From positions 225,306 through 289,305 of the forward strand of contig JAVXUO010000938.1 in NCBI GenBank assembly GCA_033065855.1: a stretch of 64,000 bases of DNA. The letters are read 5' to 3'. The position numbers and the translations under genes are program-made. The first letter of the stretch is position 1. Every line of letters starts with the position of its first letter. Below are positions 28,934 to 64,000 of this stretch, piece by piece. This DNA comes from Escallonia rubra (Eukaryota; Streptophyta; Magnoliopsida; Escalloniales; Escalloniaceae). The notes beneath the pieces are model-generated. The model saw only the letters and a program-made list of their open reading frames with translations, did not search any database and was not told the DNA's origin.

Positions 28934-31900
28934 TAGAGTTGTCAAAAGGGCCGGACGGCCCGCGGGCTGGCCCGACCCGGCCCGGTTCTGGCCCGGGCTG
29001 GCCCGACCCCTGAAGGTGAACAGTAACGGCCCAACAGATTTGGGCTTGGGGCCAGGGCCTGGACCAGGCCAAAGAATTCTGGGAAAAAGCCCGGCCCGAC
29101 CCGGAAACGACCCGGTTATGGCCCGGTTCGGCCCCACCACTTGGTTTGAATTTTTTTGTTTTCCCCCCCTTTCTTCCACCCATTTTCCAAAATTCCACTT
29201 TTACCCCCCCAACAGCAATATAACGGCTAGTTTGGGGAGTATTTTAGTCTAACTTCATTTTTCCAACTCCTTTAAAGGTTTTTACACTCTTACCCTCCCC
29301 AACAACTATAAACGGATAGTTTGTAGGGGTATTTTGGTCTTTTGTAAAGTTTCTAAAATCTATAAATTCACACCATTTCTCTCTAATTTTTCACACCAAT
29401 CTTCTTACTCTCTCTTACCTAAACATTCTATATTTCTACAAGCTTTGCTACTATTTTCCTCTCCAATTACTACTCTTGCTAATTACTACTAGTATTTACT
29501 AATTAGTACTCTTGTTTATTAATTAGTAGTCTTACTAAATTCTAATTACTAACTACTACTCTTATTAATTTGTTACTCTCTAATTCTTTTGTCTAGTAAT
29601 TAGTAATTAGTGAATTTTTATTTATTAATTACTATTACTAAATGCTTTTTAATTACTAACTCTCTCCACATTGGATCAGAATTACCCTCAGTGATTAATA
29701 TTTGTTACTCGTTCATTCTTTTAATTGTTATTTCTTATTACTACTTTTATACTTGTGTATTTAGTTACTCTTACAATTTTTAGCGTGAAATATGGCTGGA
29801 TTATTGAAGAAAATGAGGCGTGCATCGTCATCACGAAAAACATCATCATCATCGCAAGCACCACCACCAGCACAAGCGCCAGCGCCACGGCCATCACAAA
29901 CACCAATCGAAGCACCAACACAACCATTCGTTCGTGGATGAATGAGTACAGGCTGTATGATAGATACCCAAGCCAATTGGGAGTTCAATCAAAACATTCC
30001 AGATTTTGAATACACGTCTGATGAAGACCCCCCGCATTATAGTCAAGGACGCAGCTCGGTTGGCGAAGCTACTACTCAGTGGCATAATCTCAACCCTATG
30101 CCTGGTCATGATGAAGAAGGGCCGAGCAATGCCTCCGATAACGTGCCAAAAGTCCAAAAGAGAAAAAAGAAGAAAGCCGAGTGTTGGAATCATTTCGATG
30201 TAGTTACGGTGGACGGCATCCGAAAAGCTCGATGTAAGTACTGCTCTAAATTATTTTCGTCTGGTAGTGGTAATGGACATCTTAACAGGCATTACCCTCA
30301 GTGTGCACCTCGACAAGGCCACGTCGAACCTACCCAAACGCAGATATCTTTTGACGGTAAGTTATTTGTTTATAATCAGCGAGAGCAAAGAGACGGTCTC
30401 GCTGAATTTGTTATTCATGATGAACAAGCCTTTTCTTTTGCCGATAATTCTAAGTACTCTAGATATATGAATACATACGTTCAACCTTTGTACAAAAAGG
30501 TTACTAGAAACACAACTAGATTCGATGCACTCCGACAGTACAATGCTGCCAAAGCACGCTTTATCAATTATTTCGATAAATTTGACGGTAAAGTTAGTCT
30601 TACTTCTGATATTTGGTAATCTCCATTTACTTTTGTTAGTTATTCTTGTGTGACCGCTCATTGGATTGATGCAGATTGGGTTATGCACAAGAGAATCATC
30701 GCTTTCGAGCACTTTCCTTATCCGCACGATGGAATGAACATTGCTATTCTTATATTAAAAGCATGTACCACATTTAAAATAAAGGATAAGATTATGAGTG
30801 TTAGTTTTGATAATGCTTCTAATAATAAAGCTGCTGTTGCAGCTTTAAAGGACACGCTTCAACATGTACTTCATAGTAAATTATTTCATGTTCGCTGTGT
30901 TTGTCACATTATTAATTTAATTGTTCAAGATGGTTTAGCTGCTGCAGAAGATATTCTGCTCAAAATGAGGGGTATGACAGCGTATGTTAATGGCTCGAGT
31001 TTGAGAACACAACAATTTAAAACGTTGTGTGTTCAATATAATATACCTCGCAGGAGAACAGTTACAGATGTGGTCCACAGGTGGAACTCTACATACTACA
31101 TGCTTTTACACATTCTGGCATACCGAGAAGTCTATACGCATTTTCTACTAACCCAGTTCCCAGCCGGCTTGCCAACTCAAGAGGAATGGCAGATGGCCAC
31201 ATACCTAGCTGAATTTTTAAAGGTATTCTATACGTCTACCAATTTATTGTCTGGTACGTACTATCCCACCTCTCCTCTCGCTGTAATAGAAATTCTCAAG
31301 ATGGCTACAATGTTAACAAAATGGAGATATATAGGACCCTTTCAACAAATAGTAAAAGAGATGGATAAAAAATTTAATAAATATTGGAAGAAATTGCCTG
31401 TTATTTTTGTTGTGGCTACTTGTTTAGATCCTAGGTTAAAGTTGCATGGCGTGAACGCCTCGATACAAGAGATATCGAAATTAATGTGTTACACAGCAGA
31501 TGAGACAACCGCACTCACAGCAAAAGTGAGCAAGAGGTTTGAGGACTTGTTCAACCTCTATCGTAATTCTGCTGACGTGCGCGGGCGAGCTACATCATCC
31601 ACTGCTGAGAGGTATTATGCGCCATACCTTCAAGGCTTTGAACATCTAGTAGCAAGACAACTACCAGGTGAAGGTACTTCTAATTCGGCAGGTTCATATA
31701 CTTTTTCCTCTTTTAATGAGATTGGTGTATATTCAAATACTGATCATTATTCTGATTTATCAAGGCAAGAACATGTTAATTTTAATTTGTTAAATTTTTG
31801 GAAACAAAATCAAAACATGTATAAAACTTTATCCCAAATTGCACGGGATGTACTGCCAGTGCAAGCCTCCACGGTTGCTTCAGAGTCGGCATTTTCAGCC

Positions 31901-32714
31901 AGCGGGAGGGTTTTGGATGACAGGAGGAGTCGTCTTAACCCCGAGTCGCTCGAGCTATGTGTATGTTGGAAGGATTATCTTGATGCGAATTACCGCGAGC
32001 AAGATAAACCGATTGATGATAGGAAGAGCAGTGACTCGGATATTGAAGTACTTCCGGATGATTAGGTAATTTCTTTTTATTTTCCTTCTCTTAAGTTTTA
32101 AGAATAAATTTTTTCACAAAATATACTTTTTTCCATATATATAAAATAAATTTTTACAAGCAAGATATATATTTTTTCGTATATATAAAAAAATAGGTAA
32201 CTTCGCCTGTTTGTTTACAAGCAGCCGGTCCCAAGCCCGGATAAAAGGATGAGGGCCTATGAACACATTTATTAAATGTAAAAGTAGCCTACAACAGTTT
32301 GCTCTATATAACGATCATTGTCGCTAAATGTTATTAGTGTCATTTTGCATGCATTCTTTTAACAATTGTTTTAGCATTACAATCGTTTTGCATACGTTCT
32401 TTTAAGAATTGTTTTAGCGTTACAAAATAAAAGTTACTAAACATATTTAAAAGGAAATACTCATGTAGTAACCAATTCTTTTTTCCCAATTCAAGATAAA
32501 TTCATGAGGAAGTGGTATCTCTAATAAAACAACATTATGAGTAAAGAGGGATAATTATATCCAATTAAAGAAAGAAATTACACACAAAAAAAATTTGGGC
32601 CCGGGCCCGGCCCTAAATATTGGGCCTAGCATTTCTCCTCAGTCGGCCCGACCCAGATTGGCAGCCCCTTGGCCCGGCCCCGCTTCAAGCCCGATGGGCC
32701 GTTTGACACCTCTA
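28934..32714 (+). mobile_element. hAT transposon, near-complete (hAT-1)
   Basis: This 3781-bp element is bounded by a perfect 8-bp target duplication GATATATA (28926-28933 and 32715-32722), diagnostic for hAT. The terminal inverted repeats are TAGAGTTGTCAAAAGGGCC and TAGAGGTGTCAAACGGCCC (right end read inward). Both ends are packed with GGCCCGGGCC-type subterminal motifs, which in hAT elements are transposase binding sites. It encodes a BED zinc-finger/hAT transposase broken by two stop codons. The intact duplication points to a fairly recent insertion. Confidence 0.93.
29792..32065 (+). pseudogene. hAT transposase (zf-BED, Ac/RICESLEEPER-like), two nonsense codons
   Basis: One reading frame runs 758 codons from ATG 29792 to the final TAG at 32063. 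It is interrupted only by TGA at 29939-29941 and TAA at 30617-30619, with no frameshift. The N-terminus is Ser/Pro/Ala-rich, followed by a basic KKKK region. A BED zinc finger (CKYCSKLF.. with HLNRH and a later Cys) lies at about 29.9-30.3 kb. The RNase-H-like core has SDIW, HCxxHxxNLIVQDGL-like HIINLIVQDGL and RWNST. The C-terminal hAT dimerisation domain ends ASTVASESAFSASGR and RSRLNPE. The TAA follows SDIW, a conserved catalytic-core motif. A start at 29942 after the TGA would still keep the BED finger. The protein cannot be made full length without readthrough. It would have cut and pasted the element and its short relatives. Confidence 0.93.
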
Positions 32715-47665: not shown

Positions 47666-48668
47666 TCGCAAAACTTGTAAAACTTTCATTTGGCTCTCCG
47701 CTTTGTTGGTCACATTACAAGGTTTTGTTTATACTAACTGGAAGGTAGTTGATGTCATGTGTGATCAGCCGTTGTAGCATAACACCGTATGATATTCATA
47801 TGATCAACAGAGACCAGAAGTCTCTTGGAATCGTATAATGGTGATATTTTAGATGTTAGTAATATGCCTTTCGTTGACAAACAGTTGGCCCGAACATCGC
47901 ATATGCTTAGTTGGTCGCTGCAATGTCCGCAAATGGCGTATAATCGCATCGTGCTAGAACTCCATCGCAGTAAATCAAACATAAGGAAACAAATAAGAAA
48001 AAGGATAGACACCATGATTTTTTGCTTTGTTCCAACTTACTATTTGGTTTATCAAGGTTCTCTCTTCCATGATATCCATATGTATGTCTCGCACCCAGCA
48101 ACCGTTAGGGTCACCAAATTTTGTAAAATGTGCAACGATCCAACTCTGACTCCTCCTTTCGCTCTGCATTGTCACGCTCTCGCTACTCAGGCCTCGCGTC
48201 CTTGCTTTCACTACCTAGGCCTCACACCTGGTAACTTGCAGAAATTCAACCCTCGTTTGGCTACAACAAAACAATCACAGCAGTAGAAGAATAAGCCACG
48301 AAGGCTAGGTACAGTAGAATACCCTTCGTTTATGAACAACGTACAGTTGCAACAACTTCAAGCGCCAAGTTTTGCCTATAACAAATATCTACTGATTGAC
48401 AGTGTCACAAACATCCCCACAAGTGATTACTATTACAGAACTTCAATCCTTGCTAAATCTACAAAGAGATACAGTACAGTCAAGGAGATCGTCAAGAGTA
48501 GCAAAGGCAAAAAAGAGAGAAGAAACAAGGCTAGAACGCCATTGTAAATTCTGGATTAAGAGCATCTAAATATTTGTAAATCCTGCATCATGCTAAAACC
48601 TTGTTAATGACAAAAAAAACTCAGGCTTTATCTTCGATCATAGCAAGGGCTTCTGAATTCTTCATGCT

Positions 48669-50393
48669 TCAATCCACTGCCCAGTAGAATCCTGTAGGAC
48701 CAGCAACAAACAACCTGTGCAGAAATTCTATGGTAAGCTCCAATTAATACAAATCACTGATCCATAGAATCAGGGAAACCTGGACTTAGAAATCTAATAA
48801 CACCTGTACAATCATAAATATATTTCTGTTGTATTAGAAGGAAATCTGAAAGAAAAAATTGGGAATAGCCCCATGTCCATCTTTGGTGGTGAGAGTACAT
48901 CACAACAATTTTCAGCAGAATAAGCATTACTACCAAAAATAACACAACGCGGCCATTTGGAACAAGGGTACTGTATCAGCATATTTCAACAAACAGAAGC
49001 AAAAGAGAGCAAACCACATGACTTAAAGAACAGAGGAGAAAACGCACTTCACCCTTTGTGGTGCAAAGTATTATGTTTAGACGCCTGTGGTTCTTGCACG
49101 TGTAAAAATAAGAGAAAACCATCACAACATAACCGCACTTGGTCTCTGGCAGTCTATCTGAGCTCCATATACATCTTAGAAGATTCAACCTTGTAAGGCG
49201 GAACTTACTTACTTGACTATACTTCTAGTAAGGGGTTCACTTCATCATCTAACATGGTCCTACGGTGGGGAAAGAAGAATGTCCCCAAGTATGCATTCCG
49301 GGCTTGCATGCAAGAAGACCCAAGATACACCAAAAGTGGGGGTGTTTGATCAGTATAACGAGAGTGAACTCTTTGGTATGCAGTAGGAATTAGGTAGCAT
49401 ATGTTTTCTGCATGCTCTTGGTCTGCACAGCTGGGGACTGTCAACTTAAAGAAGGAACCTGGCCAGGAGTGTCGGCATCAACTATCTAGCGAAAGAGAGT
49501 CCTTCAAACCAAAGAAGAAAAGACTAGCCTTCTACCATTGTATCACCATGGTTAGAAAGGAAAAGAAGAATCTTTCAAACTATGCACAAAACAAATGGGA
49601 TACTTGATGGGTGATGCGGTGGACAGGGATGTAAATAGGTAATGCATAAGACAAATGGAACACTTGATGGGGTGATGCGATGGACAGGGATGTAAATAGG
49701 AAATAGATATGATAAGTGGCTACTGTGTTCACTTAATGGGTGCTTGTTGTTTCCATTGTGATTGGTACATAGGTATCTGTTATGCTTTACTAACATCAAA
49801 GTTTTTTTAATAATAGAGAAAGTGACCCTAACATAATTTTGCAAAAACCAGATCTTCCCTCTAATCCCCACATCTTCATCTAAAATGGCCAAAAAATCAG
49901 TGAAATGAAAAGTTTGATTAAACCACACTCCATGCACAATTAGCAGTTGTACCAAGCTGCTGCTTCAACTGGATCCACAAATATACAGATAAAATAAGTA
50001 ATGATGCATAAAATTAAAACCAAATGCTACTCATTAACTGCTTAGTGTAGTATGACCTTTACAGTATCCTTCGACAAACATTTTGCAAATATAGTCAACT
50101 TATTAGGATAGATCTAAGTTATCCCAGAAGACCTAAGAATAACTTAGATCCATGCCAAAAACCCAAAAGGCAAATATTTCAAATCCAACCGTAGAATTAT
50201 CCTTTGACGCAATCAACAAGTTTGAATATCTGGACCAAAAACCCCCTACATCCAAGAAAAACATACTATTTCGATGCAATTTTTTTGCGCTAGAGAAAAT
50301 CTTGAAGCCCCAGAACTCATAATCCTATCACCATCACTGCAATCACATTGCCCTTCCTCTACATACTTTAGGTATTGCTCAATCGGTGAATTT
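48669..50393 (-). other. Possible small multi-exon gene, unrecognised
   Basis: Two minus-strand pieces look like exons. At 50393-50267, after a good acceptor (TTTTAACTACAG), an open frame reads NSPIEQYLKYVEEGQCDCSD and on to a GTATGT donor. At 48714-48669, after TTTCTGCACAG, a frame reads LFVAGPTGFYWAVD and stops at TGA. The phases require at least one more exon of 3n+2 nt between them, which I could not identify. I recognise no family. It could equally be decayed gene sequence. Confidence 0.3.
49590..49705. repeat. 62-bp tandem duplication
   Basis: Two copies of a unit containing ACAAATGG, CACTTGATGG, GGTGATGCG and GGACAGGGATGTAAATAGG lie head to tail with a few differences. Confidence 0.75.
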
Positions 50394-51658
50394 CTGTAGT
50401 TAAAACATGTCATGCGCCATCAATGAATTGCAGAAAGATACTTTATTTAGTAATCATATCCAAAGGAATGAGTTTCTGAAGTCTGGGGTTCAAGGAGGTC
50501 GATTTGATGGCTGAACTCAAACTTCAATAACATTCTTGATCGAAGTGATTTCAAGGTTATTTTAGTCAAGTCCATTAGTTTTAAAACTGTGTTCCAAACG
50601 TTTGATGGTTGGACTTTTTGAATTTGAATACTAAAATCGTGAGTTTTTTGGTAAGATTTCCTTAGTTACTTTGCACAGTCTATCCTACTGCTATACACTG
50701 GTTCCCTAATTCTGCAACCTTCATGGCACCTCTCATATAATATATTAGGTGAAATATTGCCATACTGACTGTATGTCCTGTGCTTTGGTCAATACTGCAG
50801 AGATAACTATGAATTGAAGCTGAAGCAAGAGTTTCGTGCTATAACTAAATCTCAGTGAACTTGCATACCAGGAAGTTCCCTCACACCAAATCATGTACAA
50901 AAGTTTCCAAAAGTTTGCCAGGTGGTATGTTAGTCATGAAGGTGGGCAGACAAAGAGAAACGTGTAGGAAGACGTTGAGAGAGGAATTAGGTGGAGGTGG
51001 ATGTGATCGGCAGCCTGGGGGTAGGTTTTGGGAAGAGGAGATGGTTCCATGGGTTGAAATAGACGTGAGTTCTAAAAAGAGCGAAGCCAAAGAAAAAGAA
51101 AAGCTGAAGACAATATAAATGCTAAACCATCAACTGTTAAACATATAAGTATTTTTTCAGACTAGTAGTGATTAAAAGAGGTAGAATTTATTCTTGACAA
51201 CCACACGAGCTTATTATGTTATCACAAATTTCCGTAGAGGTAGTTGTAACATTGGATACACTTGGTGAAAATTATAACAAAACTGCAACGAAGGAGATTG
51301 AGTAGAGGTAATCACATGCAAAATGTCCTTCCCGAACCCCGTCAACCACAGCCCAAGTGTGAGTTTGTCAATTGTAAAATGGACTGCCAATAAAGTCCGC
51401 TCACCAAATTCACTTCCCAAACTAAAAAGTTACAGTATCTTACAAGCTCTAACAAGGGCACTGGACAAACTTCCACAAGTTCAATCCATCAACAACAAGT
51501 GTACAAGATCTATTAAGTTTTGAAGCTGAGCAATCATGAACTGAATAGCACAAAACAAGCATGTCAAATGCAATTTTTAGAGAGAAGGAAGCACAAAAAC
51601 TTATTCACATTGATCCATATCAAAAACATTAAACCTGCACCACTAGACGGCAGACCAC

Positions 51659-52717
51659 TCAGTAATCATATCCACTGCTCTGCTCCGGCTGCTGCTCCCG
51701 ACTATCGTTCTTCTCCCCATCCTGCACATCCACAATGTCATCCCCATCACCTTTGCTGGCCACGTCCGCCTCTTCCCTTTCCCTTTCCATTTCCCTATTC
51801 CACTGCTCAATCTTCGCCCTTCTCTCCTCGCTCCCTTCTCTATCCCCTCGCTCCCTCTCCCTATCCCTCTCCCCGCCCCTATGCATCCTCTCCCTCCTAT
51901 CGCCTTCCTCCCTATGCCTCCTTCCCCTATTCTCACCCTCGTAATCATCGTAATTCCTCCCGCGATCAAACCTCCTACCTTCCCCCCGCCCACCCCCACG
52001 TGACCGCTCCTCAAAGCTCCTATATCCTCCCCTTCCCCCACCTCCGCCTCCTCCTCCTCCCCCTCCTCCTCCCCCTCCCCCTCCCCCCCTCCCCCCCCCT
52101 CCCCCACCCCCGCGAATCCTATGCGGACTCACACTCCTACTCCTCCTCCTCTTATACCTCCCGAACAATTGCCTCCTCAAATCCTTACTAATCCTCTTCA
52201 GGTGCATGAAATTACAGTACCCCCCTCTATTACACGTATTCTCCTCATAAACCCCGCACATTGCCTCCCTGAAATCTGTCACCGGAGAAAAGTCCACGAA
52301 TATGGGCTGCCCAGCGTAAAACCTCCCGGTCAGATTCTTCAACGCGCTCGCCGCGTGCTCCTCCTCCCTAAACTGCACGTAGACGTTCCCCACCATGTGA
52401 TCCGACAGGTTGTCGCAAACGTTGAGCGACTCGATCTCGCCGTACTTGGACAGCTCCTCGAAGAGGTCCTCGTAGAAGTTTTCGAGGTGGTCCTGGAGCT
52501 TGCGGGGGTCGATGGGCTGGCCCTGGGCGTCGACGCCGGGGGTGATCATGTCGGGGCGGGGGTACATGTTGGAGAGGAGGAGGGTGGGGCTGATGGTGGG
52601 CTTGGTGTGGAGGCGGGAGCAGCGGTCGCCGTGGCGGCAGGCCCCGACCTTGAAGTAGAAGGGGCAGTTGACCCGGTCCTTCTCGGTGCCGTAGAGCGAT
52701 GCCAAGTGCTCTGCCAT
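51659..52717 (-). CDS. U2AF35: U2AF small subunit (U2AF35), intronless coding region
   Basis: This is the small subunit of the U2 snRNP auxiliary factor. With U2AF65 it recognises the 3' splice-site AG in the nucleus. The coding region is a single exon of 352 residues from the ATG at 52717 ([20 protein letters not shown]). The longer upstream frame is leader sequence. Domains are zinc finger 1, C18-x8-C27-x5-C33-x3-H37, with Ser34 conserved as in the human protein; a U2AF-homology RRM (about 43-146); and zinc finger 2, C154-x7-C162-x5-C168-x3-H172. The C-terminal tail is unusual: after [13 protein letters not shown] come two glycine runs (about 7 and 18), then an RE/RD/ER-rich stretch ending QSSGYDY. 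Arabidopsis U2AF35 proteins are shorter (about 283-296). The coding region is very GC-rich and gives false frames on the plus strand. A CACTA-like end lies 181 bp upstream. Confidence 0.95.
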
Positions 52718-52897
52718 TGTTGTTGTGGCCGGTGATCTATCTCTACTGCGTATTCTCTCTCCTAGGGTTCGTGATTTTGAGGGGAATAGTGACTCACAAC
52801 GAGGAGAGAGGAATTTATTTAACTTAAAAAAAAAAAATGAGGAGAGAGGTAGTGTGAATATATAAATAAATATGGAGGCCCAGTCTTCGTCTATGTA

Positions 52898-55302
52898 CAC
52901 TACAAGAAGGACTTTAGGACGGACCGAAGTCCGTTGCCTACGATCCTGTTATAAAAAATTTTACGACGAAATTTTATAATCTGTCGTCTAAAGTTGATCT
53001 TGAACGACGGACGCGCAAATACAATTAGCGACGGATACTTCGTCGCTAATTGTATTTTTCTCATTTTAAATTATTTTATTTCAGATATAATTTATTACGT
53101 AAAATATTTAGCGACGTAACAATTCGTCGTCAAAAGTTTTAACGACAGACATTTAGCAACGGATTTAAAAGTCTGTCGCTTAAAACTTCATTACGTTGCT
53201 AAAAATTATTTATTCACAGAATAAGTAAGACTTTAGCGACATAATAAAATTCGTCGCAAAAAGTCAAACTAATTTTAAAAATATATATTTTTTATTTTTT
53301 TAATACCTAAACCTGTAATTACAAGTTCTCAACAATCATTCTCAATCCAGCAAATATTTCTCAATGTACATTAGGGTTATATAATTATTAATACATCAGC
53401 AATTATTTAACCTTAAAACAGACACGACACATATGTATAAAGAATGGATTCTATACTAATCGAAAAATAAAATGTATACAAAGTTCAGGAGGGCACGGGA
53501 GCGAGGTACAATAGAGTAGGGGAAGGGAGCACGGGAGCGGGATTCAAACAATTAGGAGGGGAAGGGCTGATCAGGGGTCGGCATGTCCCGGATCTGGATC
53601 CTGCTGATCGTCCTTGTCCACGGGGGCACTGTGATTTAAATCCGGCTTTGGCATGTCTAGCAGCAGTGCCCTGCATGTAAAGGCATGGACGCATGAATCT
53701 CGATAACAATCGTATATATTGTTTACTCAATGTATATATTGGTTGTACCTGATTATTTGCCGTGATCATCCTATACACCTCCGCAGCAATGCGACGGATC
53801 TCGTCCTTTTGTAACGACCGTCGCTCCACGGTCGGTGTCTGCGTCTATGGAGGGGCAGCGGGGGTTAGGGACGCTCCTATTAAGACACGTGCAGTCGTAC
53901 CGGGGAGGCCGGTTACGTGGCCTTTTTGGCCTATTGATGATCCCCGGTGTATCCAGTCATTGGTTCAATCCCCTAGTACTTGTGCACATACTCGTGGACG
54001 CTGATGGATGTCTGGACTGCTGCCCAAACCCCCTGATTTGTTCATACAAGGCCTGCAAAATAATGATTTGACATTAAAAACATTAAGGCGACAAACATCG
54101 AATACAAAGGCAAAAATTTAACAAACTAAACAAATTAATTCGTAACTTACATCGATATGCCAAAAAATATCTGAAACATAGCCCCCCACCTGGTGTTGAT
54201 TGTCCTTATCCTTCTTCATCACGCGCGTTTGAGGAGAGTATGTCAAAGCACATACCTCATCCGTTGCCAAGTTCGGGTGCTCAATCGTATTCTTGTGTCG
54301 GAAGACGTGGTGAGCCACCGACCCCCCACCCCCCCCGGTGTGCATGGGATCTTTGTCCTGTCTATTTTTGCTCCCACTCTTACCCTTGGCCTCCCAAGAT
54401 GGATCAGTCCTCCACTTATCAACCATCTCTCCCCATATAGATGAAGATATCTAATGAGGGGGAGATTTCTTCCACTCTTCCATCGGCGCACCTTTAGGCG
54501 TCATCTTCCTCGCCCGTTCCCGTGCGTCGTGTAGCCATCGCCGATAATTTTTGTCAATGTAGGCAAAAAAAGCATGCTACTCCAATGCCTGCTGCTCAAG
54601 CAACTCAAACTCGAACCCCTCTGGTAAGGCATCTAATTACACAATCAATACGATTAATTTAGAATTACGTCTGAATTAAACAAATAATGACTGACACAAA
54701 TGGCTAAAAACCATATTAGCCACTCTTCCCATGAGGACTCCATCGTCGCGGTATCCCAGTCCTTCCAGTATAGCCGTGGCTCAAAGAATCGGTCCTTCAC
54801 AAGGACGCCGATCTTCGTCTTCGCCAGAGTCTTCAGTATCATGATAAAGAAATAAACATCGAATACATCAAATAAGTGGACCGTAATAAATATCAGAATT
54901 GAAGATTGTAAGTACTGCATTATGTAAGTTTTTTAGTTACTGGTCTCCCTGGGTGAGAGTAACTGTCTGCTTACACTGGGGATCGATGCGCACCCCGCAT
55001 GTCGGTCTACGACCTCGTCGAAATCCTACAAAACACCAACATTAATACATATCCAATATAATTTAAATATAAGTCTAGCATTATGACCAAACGCTGTTAT
55101 CAAATATACCTGAAGTAAAACCCACAGAAAAAAGAGAACCAGCGGGCGTGTGGGAGGAATCGGTCTGGGGTTGGGCCAGCGGTTGGGACTGGGACCGAGG
55201 CTAGGACTAAGACTGGGGCTGGGCCCCCACCTGCTAGATGTGAGCCCTATATGCCTCATCATCAGTGGGTAATGACGAGGCAGGAGCCACCAGGGTGGAC
55301 GC
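52898..55302. mobile_element. CACTA (En/Spm-like) element, truncated by a hAT insertion
   Basis: The terminus CACTACAAGAAGG at 52898 is the classic CACTA end. It is followed by subterminal GCGACG/TTCGTCGC motifs in both orientations up to about 53260 (for example GCGACGGATACTTCGTCGC). Beyond it, to 55.3 kb, lie minus-strand remnants of a plant CACTA-associated protein. The other end is not in the window, because a hAT element interrupts the sequence at 55303. The terminus is 181 bp from the U2AF35 start codon. Confidence 0.72.
53485..54920 (-). pseudogene. CACTA-associated transposase fragments (Transposase_24-like)
   Basis: Several minus-strand segments form a broken gene. They read KTLAKTKIGVLVKDRFFEPR then LYWKDWDT (about 54830-54730), AYIDKNYRRWLHDARERARK (about 54570-54500), and DPSWEAKGKSGSKNRQ then DPMHTGGGGGSVAHH (about 54410-54290). 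The order WEAK..NR..MHTGG is typical of the PF03004-like proteins carried by plant CACTA elements. Stops and frame changes separate the pieces. Some breaks may be introns, but no clean splice sites join them. Confidence 0.55.
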
Positions 55303-55956
55303 TAGACCTGGCAAAAATAAGCCCGTACCTGCAAGTCGAACCGTACCCGGTCCAAAATCCCTGGTACAGGTACCAATATTTAATACCCGTAGAAATCTGA
55401 CCCGTACCCGAACCGACCCGTAATTTTCGGGTAGGTTTGGGTCGGTTTTCGGGTTGCCCGTTTTTCTAGGTATATAATGGGAAAAAAATTGTGCCCTAAA
55501 TCTGATTTCAATTCTTCTTCTCAGTTCGTCACTCCTCCAGTCCTCTCTCCTTCTCACGCCGCCGTTGGCCAACACCGCATCTGCAGGCAAAAGATCGTGC
55601 CCTCCGTCGGCCGTCAGCCCATCTCACACGAGACGGTGAGACGCCGGATTTATTTCCACCGACCACTGTCGTAGCAGCTGTTCACGCCGTAGCAGCGTCA
55701 GCCTCTGTCCTCCGAAAAGTCTCCGCCAGTCCATCGCCGCTCAGAAGTCTCTGCCAGTCCACCGTCGATGTTCACGTCGTAGACACGGACCTCCACGTAG
55801 AAGGTTAGTTAATCTCTCCAATTTTATACTGATCAATTCGATTTATACTCTTTGTTCTTCCAAATTCGTATGAAAACGAGTAAGAATGACTGTAATCTTA
55901 CTGATTTTTAATTTTTTTATTATAGTTTGAGCCAACAATGAACAACCCATGATCCT

Positions 55957-56368
55957 TGTTGTGGATGAAATCCGGAACCTGATTCGTCAATAGACCTGCA
56001 CACCAAAAAGATAACACCGGTAACTCGCCGGAGAGATTTCCGGCGGGAAATCTCCGATGCTTAAGTCAGATAATGCTTAAGATGGATTTAGTGTGAACTC
56101 AGATAGAATTACCTACCTCTCATTGCTTTTTCCCCTTCCTTTTATAGAGCTCTCCATCTTTGGTAGTTAATTACCAGTCTAATGAAGGGTCATACCATTT
56201 AATGGGCGGTTACTGTTTTTAAGCAGGTTTATGGCCATGATGGTAAGAAGTGGGAAGGTGGGAGGTTCATTACTCTCCACTTCGTTTATTTAAGTAAATA
56301 GCAGTTCAGATCGTACGAGATCGTGACACGTGTCACGATCTCCTAGATGTTACTTTCTTTCCATATCA
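55957..56368. repeat. Left inverted arm (412 bp)
   Basis: This 412-bp stretch appears identical, base for base by eye, to the reverse complement of 60169-60580. It starts TGTTGTGGATGAAATCC and ends CCATATCA. On the minus strand it carries TATAAAAGG (56156-56148) pointing outward, and a 26-bp perfect palindrome (56317-56342) centred on ACACGTGT. The first 31 bases (55957-55987) look like host target sequence, not element; see the finding on the junction. Confidence 0.93.
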
Positions 56369-56519
56369 TTTGCCCCCCATTCCATGTTCTTTATTGGAGG
56401 ATATGGAATTATAGCATCACTATAGCTCTTTCTATTTAGAAATTCGCCTCTTTGGCATGGTTTTAGTAAGGGAAAGACAATCGTCTATTTTGTTCAGTCT
56501 GGCCGAATAGAAAATATCA

Positions 56520-57400
56520 AGGACGTCGTCTACTCGGCCTGGCCGAGTGGAGACATGCCATCTGCTCAGCTGAGTAGAGACGTGCCAAGGAGGTCGTCTA
56601 TTCGGCTTGGCCGAGTGAAGACGTGCAAAGGAGGTCGTCTACTCGGCTTGGCCGAGCAGAGACCTGCAAAGGAGGTCGTCTACTCGGCTTGGCCGAGCAG
56701 AGACCTGCAAAGGAGGTCGTCTACTCGGCTTGGCCGAGTAGAAGACGTGCCAAGGAGGTCGTCTACTCGGCTTGGCCCAGTGGAGACGTGTCCATCTATT
56801 CGTCTACTCGGCTTGGCCGAGTGGAGACGTGTCCATCTATTCGTCTACTCGGCTTGGCCGAGTAGAGGTGTGTTCATCTGCTCGTCTACTCGGCGTGGCC
56901 GAGGAGAGGCGTGTTATGGTACTCGTCTACTCGGTCTTACCGAGTAGAGGCGTATCCATTTGCTCGTCTACTCTGCGTGGCCGAATAGAGGCGTGTTATG
57001 GTGCTCGTCTACTCGGTCTTACCGAGTAGAGGCGTATCCATTTGCTCGTCTACTCTGCGTGGCCGAATAGAGGCGTGTTATGGTGCTCGTCTACTCGGTC
57101 TTACCGAGTAGAGGCGTATCCATTTGCTCGTCTACTCGGCGTGGCCGAATAGAGGCGTGTTATGGTGCTCGTCTATTCGGTCTTACCGAGTAGAGGCGTA
57201 TCCATTTGCTCGTCTACTCGGCGTGGCCGAATAGAGGCGTGTTATGGTGCTCGTCTACTCGGTCTTACCGAGTAGAGGCGTATCCATTTGCTCGTCTACT
57301 CGGCGTGGCCGAATAGAGGCGTGTTATGGTGCTCGTCTACTCGGTCTTACCGAGTAGAGGCGTGGACCAAAGTAGTTCATCTACTCGGCTATGTTGTAGT
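56520..57400. repeat. Hairpin minisatellite, about 21 copies of a 41-bp unit
   Basis: Each unit contains CTACTCGG, five variable bases, and CCGAGTAG, an inverted repeat able to form an 8-bp stem. Units are about 41 bp. From about 56922 they alternate as an 82-bp higher-order pair, one with TCTTA and one with CGTGG in the loop, separated by AGGCGTATCCATTTGCTCG or AGGCGTGTTATGGTGCTCG. Open frames across it are repeat artefacts. It lies between the left arm and the TATA box of the gene. Confidence 0.92.
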
Positions 57401-57517
57401 CATAGTCTTGGGGTAATTAGGTAATTTTGCCCCCCAGTTTTATCACTGGATCTTGCCACGTGTCTGGGGTAAGCCAACTGTCATGAGATCTCACCCGTTG
57501 GATGACATACTCGTTTC

Positions 57518-57526
57518 TATATAAGG
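57518..57526 (+). promoter_or_regulatory. TATA box of the gene at 57709
   Basis: TATATAAGG lies about 190 bp before the start codon and just after the minisatellite. It is followed by a pyrimidine-rich leader, a normal layout for a plant Pol II promoter. Confidence 0.6.
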
Positions 57527-57708
57527 GGGAAAACCTTTTATTCCCTTCATAACTTCTCACTTCTTCAAGTGTTGTTGAGAGAGTGAAGTTGTTTGGAGGC
57601 TTTGTTCAAAGGAGATTATCCAAAGTGTTCGAAGGTTCTTCTTTTACAAGTAAGCTTCAAACTTGTTTTCAAATTTTCTTTTGAAATCTCTTGCTTTGAT
57701 CTGAAATT

Positions 57709-59832
57709 ATGTCCAACTTTGATGAAGAAAGTGTTTCTGAGCCTAACGTTCAAGGCGTTAGGATAGAGCCTACGTTTGATCCTTTATTTTTAGAAACCGG
57801 GGTTCCCTTAGTTCCTTTCCAAGAGTCAAGAGGAATCCCTGCTAGGGAAGTTTTACAGGAGAATGCTCAGTCTCCTAAGCCCTTTGACGCGCACACTCTT
57901 AGAAGCAGGCTAAGTAGTTATGATTTGAAACTTCTCCGTGAGCGCTGCGATATTCCGCCGAGTATAAGACTTAGGCTCCCCGATGAGAATGAATCGGCCA
58001 ACATGACTACTTTAGACGAGGTTGGAGTTTATTGGGATATGTTCATCAATGGTTTTAGAGTTCCCCTCCATCCTTTCTTCATCAAGGTTTTGAGAGTCTA
58101 TGGCCTTGCACAAAGCCAATTTTCTCCTCACGCATGGCGCTTCATGAGTTTCTTTATATACCAGTGTCATAAACTAGGTTTAAACCCTAGGGTTCGTGTG
58201 TTCAGATGGTTTTTTACCATTTGTGCGATAACAAAGCAGGTAGGTTGGCACTTTTTGAGTCGGCGCTCGAAGGCCGAAGCCAACCTATTTCCGCATCCAC
58301 CGTCATCAAATCACCATTGGAAGGAAAGGTATTTGTTTGTTAGATTGCCTAAGTCTCAAAGGAGGGTAGTCAATAATGTATGGCTCCCTGAGTGCGAGAC
58401 TAAAGCCTGCAACAAATTAAAAGAAACGGATCTAACAGAGACTGACCTTGAACACATTGGGAAGCTTAAGGGGGCCGAGCCTTTAGAGTCCAGGTATCCT
58501 TTGAGTAATGATCAGCTTCGCGAATGCGGTATCATCTATCCTCTTGAACCCCAAGATCTTGTTGACGAGGAAGATGAAGAGGAAGAGGGAGAACATGATC
58601 CTGGTAAAGCTCTTACCAAACCTTAAGTTTGTCTAATCATGAATGGTAATCTTACTTGTGTTTTATGTGCAGAAAATATGTCGTCACAAGCGCAAGGAGA
58701 TCAACCATTGTTCAACGCCCAAGGAGTTTTGCGGGATATAATCCCTGATGAGCTAGCTTCGATTCATGGAATCGAGGAGGAGGAAGAGGAGATGCAAGCC
58801 TTGGACTTTGGTGCTTTGGTTTCTGGGGGTCAGCCGATGGCGACGGATACTCAAACCGAGCAATTCATCTTGGGCTTGAGTTCAGTGGGAGGCAAGGAGA
58901 CTTCCAAGAAGCGAAAAGTTTCTAGTAAGGCTGGGAGTAGAGCTACGTCATCTTCTGTTCGTCCTGATACCCCGCATCGTCCTGCCTGGGGGGTGTCCAT
59001 TGATGAGTCTGTGTTTAAGTCTCCTCGCACGGCATGGGATTGGTGTAGCCATGCAATTATTCCTATGGATAGGAAGACGTTGTCGGGTTATGGCATCACG
59101 GAGACGGCCAATGGGATGTTCCAGCTAATGTCGCAGGTTTATTTCTTCTCTTCCTTCTTTTCTTTTTTGAGAGTTATTTTATTCTAACTCTTTGTTGTAT
59201 AGGCTACGGCGCAAGTGCAGATCGGCGCCGAGAAGTTGATTGCTGCAGATAAGGTTTTGGACGAGGAGAAGAAGAAAGTGATGATTGAGAACAACTTTCG
59301 CAGGGAGGCAGAGAAGAAAGTTGAAGACTTGAGCAGGAAGGTTGAGCGTCTGGAACTGTCTAGTGAAGACTTGAGCAGGAAGGTTGAGCGCCTGGAACTG
59401 TCTAATGCCGGGCAGACTACTCGGATCGCGGACTTGGAGGCCGAGAGGTCCACGGCAGGATTTCAAGCTGTGCAGATGTTTAAGAAGTCTAAGGTTTTCT
59501 TAGATCAGCGTCTTCGTGATTCCAAAGGGGCGCTTGTGCATGGATATAACGAATGCAAAGATGATATTCGCAAGGATCATCCTGAGCTTGACCTGAGTAT
59601 TTATGAACACAAGTTTGCCCGAGAGGTTGCTCTAGAGATTGAGCGTCGGGCCGAAGAGCATGGACGTAGGAAAGCTGCCAGTTCCCGTGCACTCACAAGT
59701 CCTTCTGCGAGTCGCAGTGTAGGAGCTTCAGGGTCAGCGTCTGTGACCGCTTCAAGGCCGCCATTGCCGCAGGCTGGAGGTCGTTCCCAAGAGGTTGAAG
59801 TACCCAGAGATGTTGCAGAGCAGGATGATTAG
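57709..59832 (+). CDS. Transposon-associated protein, PF04195-like with coiled coil (3 exons)
   Basis: Exons 57709-58603, 58673-59136 and 59203-59832 join in phase at GT/AG sites, giving about 662 residues with no internal stop. Residues about 75-240 resemble the plant 'putative gypsy type transposon' domain (PF04195): TLDEVGVYWDMFINGFRVPL, HPFFIKVLRVYGLA, then HAWRFMSFFIYQC. An acidic stretch follows (DEEDEEEEGE), then the second exon with a basic KKRK patch. A heptad-rich coiled coil lies at about 465-530, including a tandem repeat of EDLSRKVERLELS. The Ala/Ser-rich tail ends EQDD. It has none of the motifs of a reverse transcriptase, integrase or DDE transposase. The family's biochemical role is not known to me. 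It looks expressed-type: TATA box, introns and an intact frame. The start is the first ATG in the frame. Confidence 0.82.
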
Positions 59833-60168
59833 AATAGACTTTTGCTTTGTTTACTAGAGTTTAGTCCTTGTAGTATCTTTTGAGTTGTATTTTGCTGCTC
59901 CAGGGCTTTTAATGTGTAAGACATTTGACTCTTTGAAGTTCTATTTTGGCACTTGTTGCAAAGTAAATATGTGAAGTCTTTCTCCATTTCTGACGAATGA
60001 GGATACATTAAAGAAACTTTGGGCTGCTAGGCTGCGAGGAGCCGTAGAGCTGATTCTGAAAAAATAAACTAAAGACTACTAAGCTATATAAAGCCGTAGA
60101 CACCTCCGAAGAAAGACAATCCCGAGCATGAGCAAGATCCTAGTGAATGAATGAAAACAGGTGTAGGC
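59833..60168. other. 3' region of the PF04195-like gene
   Basis: This should be the 3' UTR and downstream sequence of the gene, ending at the right arm. There is no purine tract before the right arm, unlike at the left arm. Confidence 0.5.
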
Positions 60169-60580
60169 TGATATGGAAAGAAAGTAACATCTAGGAGATC
60201 GTGACACGTGTCACGATCTCGTACGATCTGAACTGCTATTTACTTAAATAAACGAAGTGGAGAGTAATGAACCTCCCACCTTCCCACTTCTTACCATCAT
60301 GGCCATAAACCTGCTTAAAAACAGTAACCGCCCATTAAATGGTATGACCCTTCATTAGACTGGTAATTAACTACCAAAGATGGAGAGCTCTATAAAAGGA
60401 AGGGGAAAAAGCAATGAGAGGTAGGTAATTCTATCTGAGTTCACACTAAATCCATCTTAAGCATTATCTGACTTAAGCATCGGAGATTTCCCGCCGGAAA
60501 TCTCTCCGGCGAGTTACCGGTGTTATCTTTTTGGTGTGCAGGTCTATTGACGAATCAGGTTCCGGATTTCATCCACAACA
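60169..60580. repeat. Right inverted arm (412 bp)
   Basis: Reverse-complement partner of 55957-56368. It begins TGATATGGAAAG and ends ATCCACAACA. On the plus strand TATAAAAGG at 60391-60399 points out of the insertion toward the hAT-4 transposase. The ACACGTGT palindrome recurs at about 60195-60220. Confidence 0.93.
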
Positions 60581-60594
60581 TTTTCCTGATTCGT

Positions 60595-61229
60595 GTAGGA
60601 CTCCCTGTACAAAGTCACTGACCAGTTAATTTGTAAAAAGTTAGTTTGTAATTGCAGAAATTGTTGGTAGCCAGTTAATTTGTACAAAGTCAGTAGCCAG
60701 TTAATTCTGTTTGGATAAGCCTTTTATCAGCAATTTTGCCATTAACAAGTTAATTTGTAAACATGTATGTTTGCAAATTGCAATTGCAGAAGAGTAATTA
60801 ATTACCTTAAAAACTAGGCTAAATCCCCCTTCCCCCACTTTGTTTTGCATGCCGAAGTTGTTGGTAGGCTGGTAGCAGCTGCTATTTTCTAAAACTCAAA
60901 CATGTGTAGCTCCGATAAATCTTGTTGTGACATGTTTATGTTCAAATTCCTTTGTGAGGCAGTTTGCTACTAAGTTACTTATGATCTGAAGGGAGATTGG
61001 ATTTGGGCAGTATTGTGGATTTGTGGTGGATTTTATTATTGTTGGATGATATATATATATATTTTTTGCATTTGGATATATGTATTGGCGTATTGTTGAA
61101 TTTGCTGTTGGACTAGTGGACTATTGAAGTGTAAATCTAAAATTATGTGTTTTGTTGGTCCTGTTGGATCTGTTGACTTCTTGTTCTTGCTTTTTTTCTT
61201 ATTCTTTGTTTCGGACTATTGTAGAATCT
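60595..61229. other. hAT-4 5' region right of the insertion
   Basis: AT-rich sequence with repeated CAGTTAATTTGTAAA motifs and a TATATATATATA run at 61052-61063. It probably holds the 5' UTR and an intron of the hAT-4 transposase, because TTGTAG at about 61219-61224 could be the acceptor before the start codon. Confidence 0.45.
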
Positions 61230-63459
61230 ATGGAATCTGTAAACAAGACTCCACCCATTGAGAATGTTGAGGTTGTTGATGTTGAATATGAATGTCCTCA
61301 AGTTTTTACCAACCTTGATGAAGTTGCTAATGATATTGACATTAGTGTTGATGAAAAGTCTATTAGAGGTAAAATTTGGAAATTTTTGATATTGTGGAGG
61401 AGAATAATAAACATTGGGTTGTGTGTATGTGGTGTAAAGCCTCTAGTTTTGCCATGGGGACAACTCCTGATGGGAAGCCATGCAAGGGTACACATGGGAC
61501 TTCAAATATGTATAAACATCTTAAGGTTTGTAGTGTGTACAAAAAAAATTTATGGACGTAAAACAGATGCATTTAGATCATTCTGTGAAATTGAGGTCTA
61601 GAAAGATTTCTCAAGATGTTTATCGTGAAAAAATGGCTATTGCAATGATGAAGCATAACTATCCTTTCTTGGTTGCTGAACATGAGGGTCTTAGGGATGT
61701 TCACGGTTATTTGAATCCGGATGTCAAGCATTATACTCGTAATACTGCAAAAGCTGATTGTTTGAAAATCTCGTTGAGTCAGAAAGACATGCTTAAGCTT
61801 GCTTTGGGTAGAATTCAAGGGAAGCTATGTCTTACGGCGGATGTGTAGACTTCTATTAAATATGAGGTATATCTTTGCTTGAATGCACACTTTGTTGATG
61901 AATATTGGAAATTGCATAGTAGGATTCTTAATTTTTCTCAATTTACTCCGCCACATAATGGTAAATCCTTGTGTAACAAAGCATATGATTTTTTGAAGGA
62001 TTGGGGAATTGAGAAAAAAGTCTTTTGGATCACTTTAGATAATGCCACTAGTTGTGATAACATGCAAGACCACTTGAAGAATAGATTGCTAGTTAACAAA
62101 GTCTTGGTGAGTAATGGGGATTATTTTCATAAACGATGTTCAGCTCATATCTTGAACCTCATTGTGCAAGACGGGTTGAAAGTTGGTAATAAGGCTATTT
62201 ACAAGATTAGGGAAAGCATTAAGTATGTGAAAGGATCCGAGGGTAGGATAATAAAGTTTGCCCAGTGTTGTGAGCAAATTGGCGTGGCTACTTCGATGGG
62301 TTTGCGCATGGATGTTCCCACTCGTTGGAACTCTACTTTCTTTATGCTAGAGTGTGGGCTTAAATTTCGGTCGGCGTTTGTGAATTATTCCCTCATTGAA
62401 TCTAGCTACAAGTATTGTCCTACCAATGAAGAATGGGATATGGGGGCTAAAATTGCAAAGTTTTTGGCCCCATTTGCTGTGATGACCAATCTTGTGTCTG
62501 GAACTGAGTATGTAACTTCAAATCTGTATTTTAATTCAGTGTGGAGAATTCAGCTGCGTATAATGGAAGAGATGAAAAGTGAGAATCTAGTTTTGAGAAA
62601 AATGGCAATGGAAATGTACCCTAAGTTTTTAAAGTATTGGGAATCTTATAGTACTATCCTAGCTATAGCAACAGTGCTTGATCCTCGCAACAAGTTAGGA
62701 TATGTTGAATAGTGCTATGAAAAGATTGAAGCGGGTAGAGGGGAAGATAAGGCAAAAAAACTCAAAAAGAAGATCGAGAAGCTCTATGAAGAATATGTGG
62801 TTCAAAATTCTGTTGTTCCAAAAGATAAAGCTTCAGTTGGTACAAGTATCGTTTGCTTGGAAGAAGATGAGGCCGAAGTAAGTTATTTATTTTTTTATGT
62901 TTACGTTCCTTGTTTACTTGTTTATATTTTTTGTTTAATACATTTCTCATTCAAAAAATGTAGGAGTACTTTAAAGAGCGACGACTTGAGGCCAAGAAGA
63001 AGTCGGATTTAAATCTTTATTTGGAGGAGCCAGCATATGATCGCGTGGAATATGCATATTTGGATGTGTTGGAGTATTGGAAAGACAATCGGTCTAGGTA
63101 TACTATTCTTTCTAATATGGCACGTGACATTATGAGCATTCCAATTACCATTGTTGCATCCGAATCGACTTTTAGTATTGGAGCAAAAGTTCTTTCAAAA
63201 GTTCAGAGTTCACTTACTCCGGATAATGCCCGAGCTTTGGTTTGCCGACGTAATTGGTTGTATGGATATGCAATTCAAAGTAAGTTATTATTTTTAAAGC
63301 ATTCGAATATGAAGTTTATATTTATGTTTTGGGATTTAGTCTAATCATATTTCCTTAAATGTAGGTGATGAGCCGAACGATAGTAACCTTGTGATATCTT
63401 TGCCTATCAATGCAAACACGGATGGTTCGTTGGATGCACGAAGCTTAATGGAGATTTGA
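61230..63459 (+). pseudogene. hAT transposase (zf-BED), decayed
   Basis: The frame starts at ATG 61230 (MESVNKTPPIENVEVVDVEY), shifts near 61380 (one base short in AAATTTTTGAT) and again near 61545 in an A-run. It then has TAG at 61846 and TAG at 62710. The BED zinc finger is recognisable (CMWCKASSF, then HGTSNMYKHLKVC). The core has DNATSCDNM, HILNLIVQDGLKVGNK and PTRWNSTFFM. The C-terminal dimerisation domain has VEYWKDN-like LEYWKDNRSRYTILSNMARD and PITIVASESTFSIGAKVLS. Two introns are apparent (62879-62963 and 63281-63363, GT/AG), and it ends SLMEI-TGA. It is diverged from the hAT-1 transposase and belongs to hAT-4. Confidence 0.88.
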
Positions 63460-64000
63460 AGACTTGAAGTTTTAGTTGACGAGTGACGGCGATGGAATTG
63501 AAGACTTTAATTTCAATGAATTTATGCATATGATATGATGATGTAATTGTTATTTAAAGTTTTTGGATTATGGGCGGGTATTGGGGAATGGGGTTTAGAT
63601 GCTTGAATTTGTTCTTATGGTATTTAACAATTAGTATGCTAGTAACTAGTAAGTAATTAGTAGTAAGTAACTAAGTAGGATATTATGAGTTTTAATGTTT
63701 TATGTGTCATAACTTTTAGTTTTTGGTAAACTGAAAAGTGAAAATTGTTTTTACAATAACAATCAAAGACATGAAATGTGTTGGTAAAATAAGCAAAAGA
63801 AACAAAAAGAGAAAAATAACAGTTAGTAACAAGAAAAAACTGTTTTAAAAAGTGGGTAAAAAGGTGTTTTTANTAATTTTAAAAAAGGACATTACCCGCG
63901 GGTAGTAGCCTACCCGAAAGGGTAGGTACGGTTCCCAGAAAATCGTACCCGAAAAAACTCAGGTATAAATTACCCGACAAGTTTTTACCCGGACCTGACC
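63460..64000. other. hAT-4 3' region with subterminal repeats
   Basis: Transposon 3' UTR, then ACCCGCGGGTAGTAGCCTAC and further CCCG/CGGGTA motifs from 63895 that mirror 55380-55460. One unknown base (n) lies at 63874. The right terminus is not reached. Confidence 0.7.

Follow-up and report, generated by a model that had tools for sequence, protein, structure and literature searches.

What arranges two perfect inverted arms around an intact spliced gene in a plant genome? This question is raised by a 4.6-kb insertion in Escallonia rubra, located in the window analysed here (64,000 nucleotides of one contig, C3200), for which an earlier note had offered three readings: a Pack-MULE-like carrier of a gene, a long terminal repeat (LTR) element with one inverted LTR, or an undescribed inverted-LTR type. 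Our analysis suggests, with a probability of roughly three in four, that the region is a rearranged insertion of Retand-type Ty3/gypsy retrotransposons, in which a composite of two elements was captured by end-joining and one of them subsequently lost its interior.

The arms are exact reverse complements at 412 of 412 positions without exact extension in either direction (Table 1), and TATAAAAGG can be read within both. Self-comparison of the window detected no further copy of arm or interior in its 64 kb. The insertion ends at 60580, and the end previously placed at 60594 lies 14 bases too far. A 10-mer, CCTGATTCGT, is common to the LTR (55978-55987) and to the target flank adjoining the insertion (60585-60594), and may be the reason for that placement. 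Several other elements of the earlier description were borne out, including the perfect arms, the GGGGGGCAAA tract on the minus strand beside the left arm, a minisatellite (periods 41/82/164; TRF) and an intact three-exon gene. The proposed coiled coil was found as a match to PF24627, but at E = 0.016 this falls below the curated cut-off.

The TG..CA ends, TATA box and polypurine tract (PPT) had already given the arms an LTR character, and a genome search with one arm, as suggested at the time, confirmed it by recovering direct-repeat copies with a primer binding site (PBS). The search covered the 566-Mb assembly (3,222 contigs), and the best 40 of 576 candidates were scored, making the counts lower bounds; 34 weak hits among 74 matches, all to a palindrome internal to the LTR, were dropped. 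At least 40 LTR copies are present. Fifteen contigs hold two copies on the same strand (spaced by 9.4-11.6 kb in 14 of these pairs and by 6.7 kb in the other), and the remaining scored LTRs belong to the window contig (two, inverted), a second contig, C1564 (three), and five contigs with one each; among these best 40, no inverted LTR neighbours occur outside the window contig and C1564. The LTR contains a 39-bp near-perfect palindrome around CACGTG (GAGATCGTGACACGTGTCACGATCTC, 60189-60227; mirror copy 56310-56348), the core of which we take to be a G-box-like site.

The copies display the anatomy of a complete retrotransposon family. The sequence TTTTGGCGCC, which we read as a TTT spacer followed by the PBS, stands after the 5′ LTR of ten direct pairs, the single LTR of C1083 and one LTR of C1564 (LTR_B, see below), while a tract resembling GGGGGGCAAA precedes the intact 3′ LTRs. 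A 5-bp target-site duplication (TSD) is perfect in nine of ten usable direct pairs and matches at four of five positions in C1514, whose 3′ LTR has lost its start; a solo LTR in C1546 also has a perfect 5-bp TSD. This count was made without C2166 (both LTRs retrieved, outer termini unaligned) and without element X of C1564, and with only C1389 counted where C1390 shares its 3′ flank (L014/L019) and probably represents that element again on a different contig. That shared flank indicates that redundant contig ends or haplotigs probably occur among these copies too. A domain scan of one copy, C869, identified gag, reverse transcriptase, RNase H and integrase in gypsy order and reported no protease domain. 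The arms are the LTRs of a gag-pol retrotransposon family; gag-pol itself is absent from the window locus.

The gene between the arms belongs to the same family. Its three exons join into a 662-codon open frame (splice sites by eye) encoding PF04195, 'Putative gypsy type transposon' (E = 7.4e-18, Pfam scan), and an open reading frame (ORF) listing, to whose small frames the domain scan was not applied, contained no further long frame between the arms outside this gene and the minisatellite frames. In C869, C1390, C2913, C752 and element X of C1564, sequence aligning to the window interior adjoins the 3′ LTR and runs antisense to gag-pol. Because gene and minisatellite adjoin the 3′ LTR in several family copies, the gene is identified as an accessory gene of the retrotransposon and not as a captured host gene. 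The whole frame is kept in five of the seven copies examined, two of the five being the copies of element Y (see below) in the two contigs; the C869 copy has one internal stop, and that of C752 is partial, with gaps and stops. Pairwise ratios of nonsynonymous to synonymous substitution (dN/dS) of 0.14 to 0.66 across 21 pairs, the highest values coming from the pairs with fewest changes, suggest purifying selection. The 26 relatives recovered for the exon 1 protein are all named as Escallonia herrerae and are 46-89% identical.

We assign the family to the Retand type of Ty3/gypsy elements, a lineage name that rests on anatomy and PF04195 rather than on reverse transcriptase phylogeny. In the survey by Vicient 2025, the Retand region between pol and the 3′ LTR spans 2,933-6,566 bp, antisense PF04195 ORFs occur in 97% of clusters, and tandem repeats lie between pol and the 3′ LTR in about half (PMC11963269). 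The Escallonia family likewise has an antisense PF04195 (TRP28) ORF and tandem repeats in this interval, which in C869 measures 4,278 bp (pol frame end L011:7685; 3′ LTR start L012:4463) and lies within the reported range, and its direct copies carry 5-bp TSDs (PMC11963269). The window locus differs in being a 5′-truncated copy that faces a solo LTR, with inverted LTRs, without gag-pol and lacking the 5-bp duplication of the family copies. According to a review, an antisense gene 3′ of pol is shared by Grande, RIRE2 and Retand, the ORF4 of Retand has the same Pfam domain, and in Grande an upstream promoter belonging to the gene itself reportedly drives its transcription (PMC7264820). The likeness to gene23 of Grande is one of position and orientation by description, and the window gene is a predicted one.

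Comparison with C1564 suggests how the two LTRs came to face each other. Window positions 48317-64000 are collinear with this contig (the left-hand 6.7 kb at 99.66% identity, the right-hand part at 98.9-99.1%), and the flanks differ by substitutions at 0.63% and 0.43%. The overlap involves contig ends on both sides, the right end of the window being the end of its contig, and C1564 most likely represents the other haplotype. In window orientation, C1564 reads left flank, LTR_A, minisatellite and gene of an element Y, LTR_B, PBS, gag-pol part of an element X, gene and minisatellite of X, LTR_C, right flank. From LTR_A to LTR_C, this forms a 14.8-kb composite of a 5′-truncated Y and a complete-length X in opposite orientation, in which the 5′ LTR of X (LTR_B) abuts Y just downstream of pol. 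The two LTRs of X differ at 1 of 412 bases, and long open frames occupy its gag-pol position (frames only, no domain identification).

Where C1564 has LTR_B, X interior and LTR_C, only one LTR stands in the window. Since it thus equals the C1564 composite minus the X interior, the right arm is by this comparison the solo LTR of X, and the left arm the 3′ LTR of Y, which was cut just downstream of pol; a contig artefact is possible. The arrangement resembles solo LTR formation in that a single LTR stands where the other contig has LTR-interior-LTR, and differs in that the right arm, as X itself, lacks a flanking TSD. An LTR element with one inverted LTR was therefore the nearest of the three earlier readings, but the inverted LTR belongs to a second, oppositely oriented element that is complete in C1564.

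Gene divergence is 0.25% between X and Y and 0.29% between the Y copies of the two contigs (figures that exclude the minisatellite, where alignment is unreliable), so that about one difference per 412 bp would be expected. The arms would thus be identical because X and Y are near-identical siblings; perfect identity is what recent copies of this kind should show, and gene conversion need not be invoked. Given the substitution levels in the contig flanks, the composite is plausibly shared by descent and predates the loss of the X interior. X and Y have different sequences beside the breakpoint, different PPTs and minisatellites of different length, and for this reason Y was probably not copied from this X.

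The junction between Y and X is clean: Y stops at GCCTACACC (sequence given in the direction of its 3′ LTR), and X starts at its exact U3 terminus. A genome-wide pattern search (≤3 mismatches) recovered this junction at one locus only, in C3200 and C1564, and the reversed control pattern had zero genome matches. Because both contigs hold the same inverted junctions, these are not private to the window contig; a recurring, undescribed inverted-LTR class is rejected by the restriction of the junction to this locus. In intact copies, the sequence missing from Y begins at a G-run/C-run hairpin directly after pol. At the pol end (L011:7640-7760), a 12-bp stem can enclose this hairpin, and Y is cut inside it. 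The RNA fold has a z-score of -2.37, with 5 of 200 shuffles folding at least as well, which fits a stop of reverse transcription and proves nothing.

The target site is equally informative. The insertion lies inside a hAT-related repeat (flanks 55657-55956 and 60581-61580), of which four paralogous flanks elsewhere are 90.6-95.8% identical. The empty sites read ATC(C/T)T-GATTCCTG(A/G)TTC, compared with ATCCT, insertion, TTTTCCTGATTC at the locus. This comparison with four paralogs indicates that no 5-bp duplication is present, that 2-4 target bases were lost and that 2-4 T's at the right U5 end are unexplained by the target and match the LTR-PBS spacer. Integrase normally removes this spacer. 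X itself has no target duplication in C1564 (TAGGC before LTR_B, TTTTC after LTR_C). The target also holds a 7-bp near-tandem unit, exact as CCTGATTCCTGATT in one of four paralogs and with one mismatch in the other three. The repeat includes a PF14372 frame downstream of the insertion (61849-62706), and another hAT transposase gene occurs at 29942-32062, with PF14372 and PF05699 above cut-off and zf-BED just below.

We propose that a truncated Y complementary DNA (cDNA) became attached to an X cDNA at the U3 end of the latter, and that the fused pair, with a U5 end on each side, would have been sealed into a chromosomal break by end-joining instead of concerted integrase action. In the window haplotype, the interior of X would then have been lost by recombination between its two direct LTRs, so that a solo LTR remained opposite the LTR of Y. 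The fuller scenario, for which we regard the odds as even, is that two sibling Retand cDNAs, one an incomplete reverse transcript that had halted next to the G/C hairpin following pol, were fused U3 end to truncated end and captured in a germ-line break without concerted integration.

Capture of two fused cDNAs by end-joining is favoured because the junction features resemble Ty1 capture at yeast double-strand breaks. In a preprint on this process, the 3′ LTR region is a hotspot of captured Ty1 cDNA, 40 of 56 wild-type 3′ LTR insertions carry cDNA-only nucleotides, and a single break can take up several fragments joined together (PMC10802722, preprint). The Escallonia case differs in being an inherited plant Ty3/gypsy insertion of about 14.8 kb with a complete-length copy, its mechanism being read from junctions only. 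Among the matches listed in a literature search on inverted LTRs, odd LTR structures and cDNA capture (open-licence titles and abstract openings), there was no plant report of such a locus.

Several points weigh against this proposal. Capture at a break is deduced from the junctions, and the Retand name is an anatomical one. Two point changes (GA to TT) could account for the two unexplained right-end bases without any added T's, and the left U5 end has no extra bases and looks processed. A target that once held just one copy of the 7-bp unit would allow another reading of the ends, as U5+TTT plus a 4-bp duplication (TCCT), and this would suit an irregular integrase event. Finally, the contigs overlap at their ends, so the absence of X from the window could be an assembly collapse. 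Two further routes were considered and set aside. Integration primed by the 10-bp LTR/target match CCTGATTCGT does not predict the junction seen. An origin of Y from one cDNA by snap-back or self-integration is disfavoured by the three differences between X and Y given above, and because the products described for Ty self-integration are circles, of which one type has inverted LTRs, and not a linear pair (PMC4751563).

Among the alternatives, nested insertion is unlikely. A full Y would have inserted first, X would have entered it in opposite orientation, the 5′ half of Y would have been deleted, and the X interior would later have been lost in the window haplotype. The clean LTR-host junction at the left flank of Y suits this history, and the literature calls nesting common among LTR retrotransposons (PMC6911290) and describes removal of element parts by illegitimate recombination (PMC7251063). 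However, X lacks the TSD expected of such an insertion (TAGGC / TTTTC), and the deletion would have to start 0-4 bp from the X LTR end and finish a few bp from the Y target site. LTR recombination could not have made it, the LTRs of X and Y being mutually inverted.

An assembly artefact is about as improbable: X would be present on both haplotypes, and the window contig would have collapsed its two LTRs. Both contigs do end inside the shared region, and X's LTRs differ at that single base, but the flanks differ by 0.3-1.1% on the two sides in a haplotype-like manner, to which sequencing error could contribute, and the inverted junctions stand in both contigs regardless.

More doubtful still is the possibility that the 4.6-kb inverted-LTR unit is the older form and that C1564 gained the X interior when the right LTR recombined with an element cDNA or a circle. 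In yeast, such molecules are known to undergo homologous recombination with LTRs, and the same two structures would result. Against this, LTR-LTR recombination to a solo LTR is the commoner direction, and a lone LTR fused to Y would still be required. The documented route to solo LTRs is recombination between an element's own LTRs (PMC7251063).

A Pack-MULE-like DNA transposon, by definition a captured host gene within the terminal inverted repeats of a Mutator-like element (MULE) and a 9-10 bp TSD, can be dismissed with near certainty: long perfect inverted arms do flank an intact spliced gene here, but a family of gag-pol elements accounts for both the arms, as its LTRs, and the gene, no 9-10 bp duplication is present at the locus, and the pattern search found the junction at no second site.

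Table 1. Features of the composite insertion and its immediate flanks, in window coordinates
Feature	Position	Strand	Basis
Left host flank CCCATGATCCT, inside hAT-related repeat	55946..55956	+	Aligns to four paralogous empty sites as far as the insertion point
Left arm, read as 3′ LTR of truncated element Y, U5 end outward	55957..56368	-	LTR sequence; PPT adjoining, as in direct-repeat copies
PPT GGGGGGCAAA of Y	56369..56378	-	Same or similar tract precedes 3′ LTR in direct-repeat copies
Minisatellite (approximate limits)	56578..57364	.	TRF; present too in C1564 X and Y, C869 and C1390
TATATAAG, possible promoter box of antisense gene	57518..57525	+	Sequence reading; putative function
Accessory gene exon 1 (antisense, PF04195 / TRP28)	57709..58603	+	Reading frame, Pfam, copy comparison
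Accessory gene exon 2	58673..59136	+	Reading frame, copy comparison; splice sites by eye
Accessory gene exon 3, weak coiled-coil match	59203..59832	+	Reading frame, Pfam, copy comparison
Junction of Y truncated end (just 3′ of pol in full element) and U3 end of X LTR	60168..60169	.	Clean TG terminus; two sites in genome, both same locus
Right arm, read as solo LTR of element X (X complete in C1564)	60169..60580	+	Place occupied in C1564 by LTR_B, interior, LTR_C
T-tract, right U5 end	60581..60584	+	2-4 T unexplained by empty sites; match LTR-PBS spacer TTT/TGGCGCC
Right host flank TTCCTGATTCG	60583..60593	+	Four empty sites read ATC(C/T)TGATTCCTG(A/G)TTC

Collectively, these results remove a candidate for a new transposon class and point to a rearranged member of a known lineage. 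They also outline a route of mimicry: when a solo LTR stands opposite that of a truncated sibling, the result resembles a gene-bearing DNA transposon whose long inverted repeats are perfect; what is unusual is a composite insertion without the usual target duplication. The perfect 412-bp inverted pair could possibly serve as a source of hairpin RNA against the LTR of the family, and the window accessory gene, with no adjoining gag-pol, gives a natural opportunity to study its action by itself. Together, C1564 and the empty sites make it possible to read, in a plant, an insertion of LTR-retrotransposon cDNA that was probably independent of integrase. If the fuller scenario is true, multi-fragment capture of retrotransposon cDNA would have a natural example in a plant, one that brought two accessory genes to a single locus.

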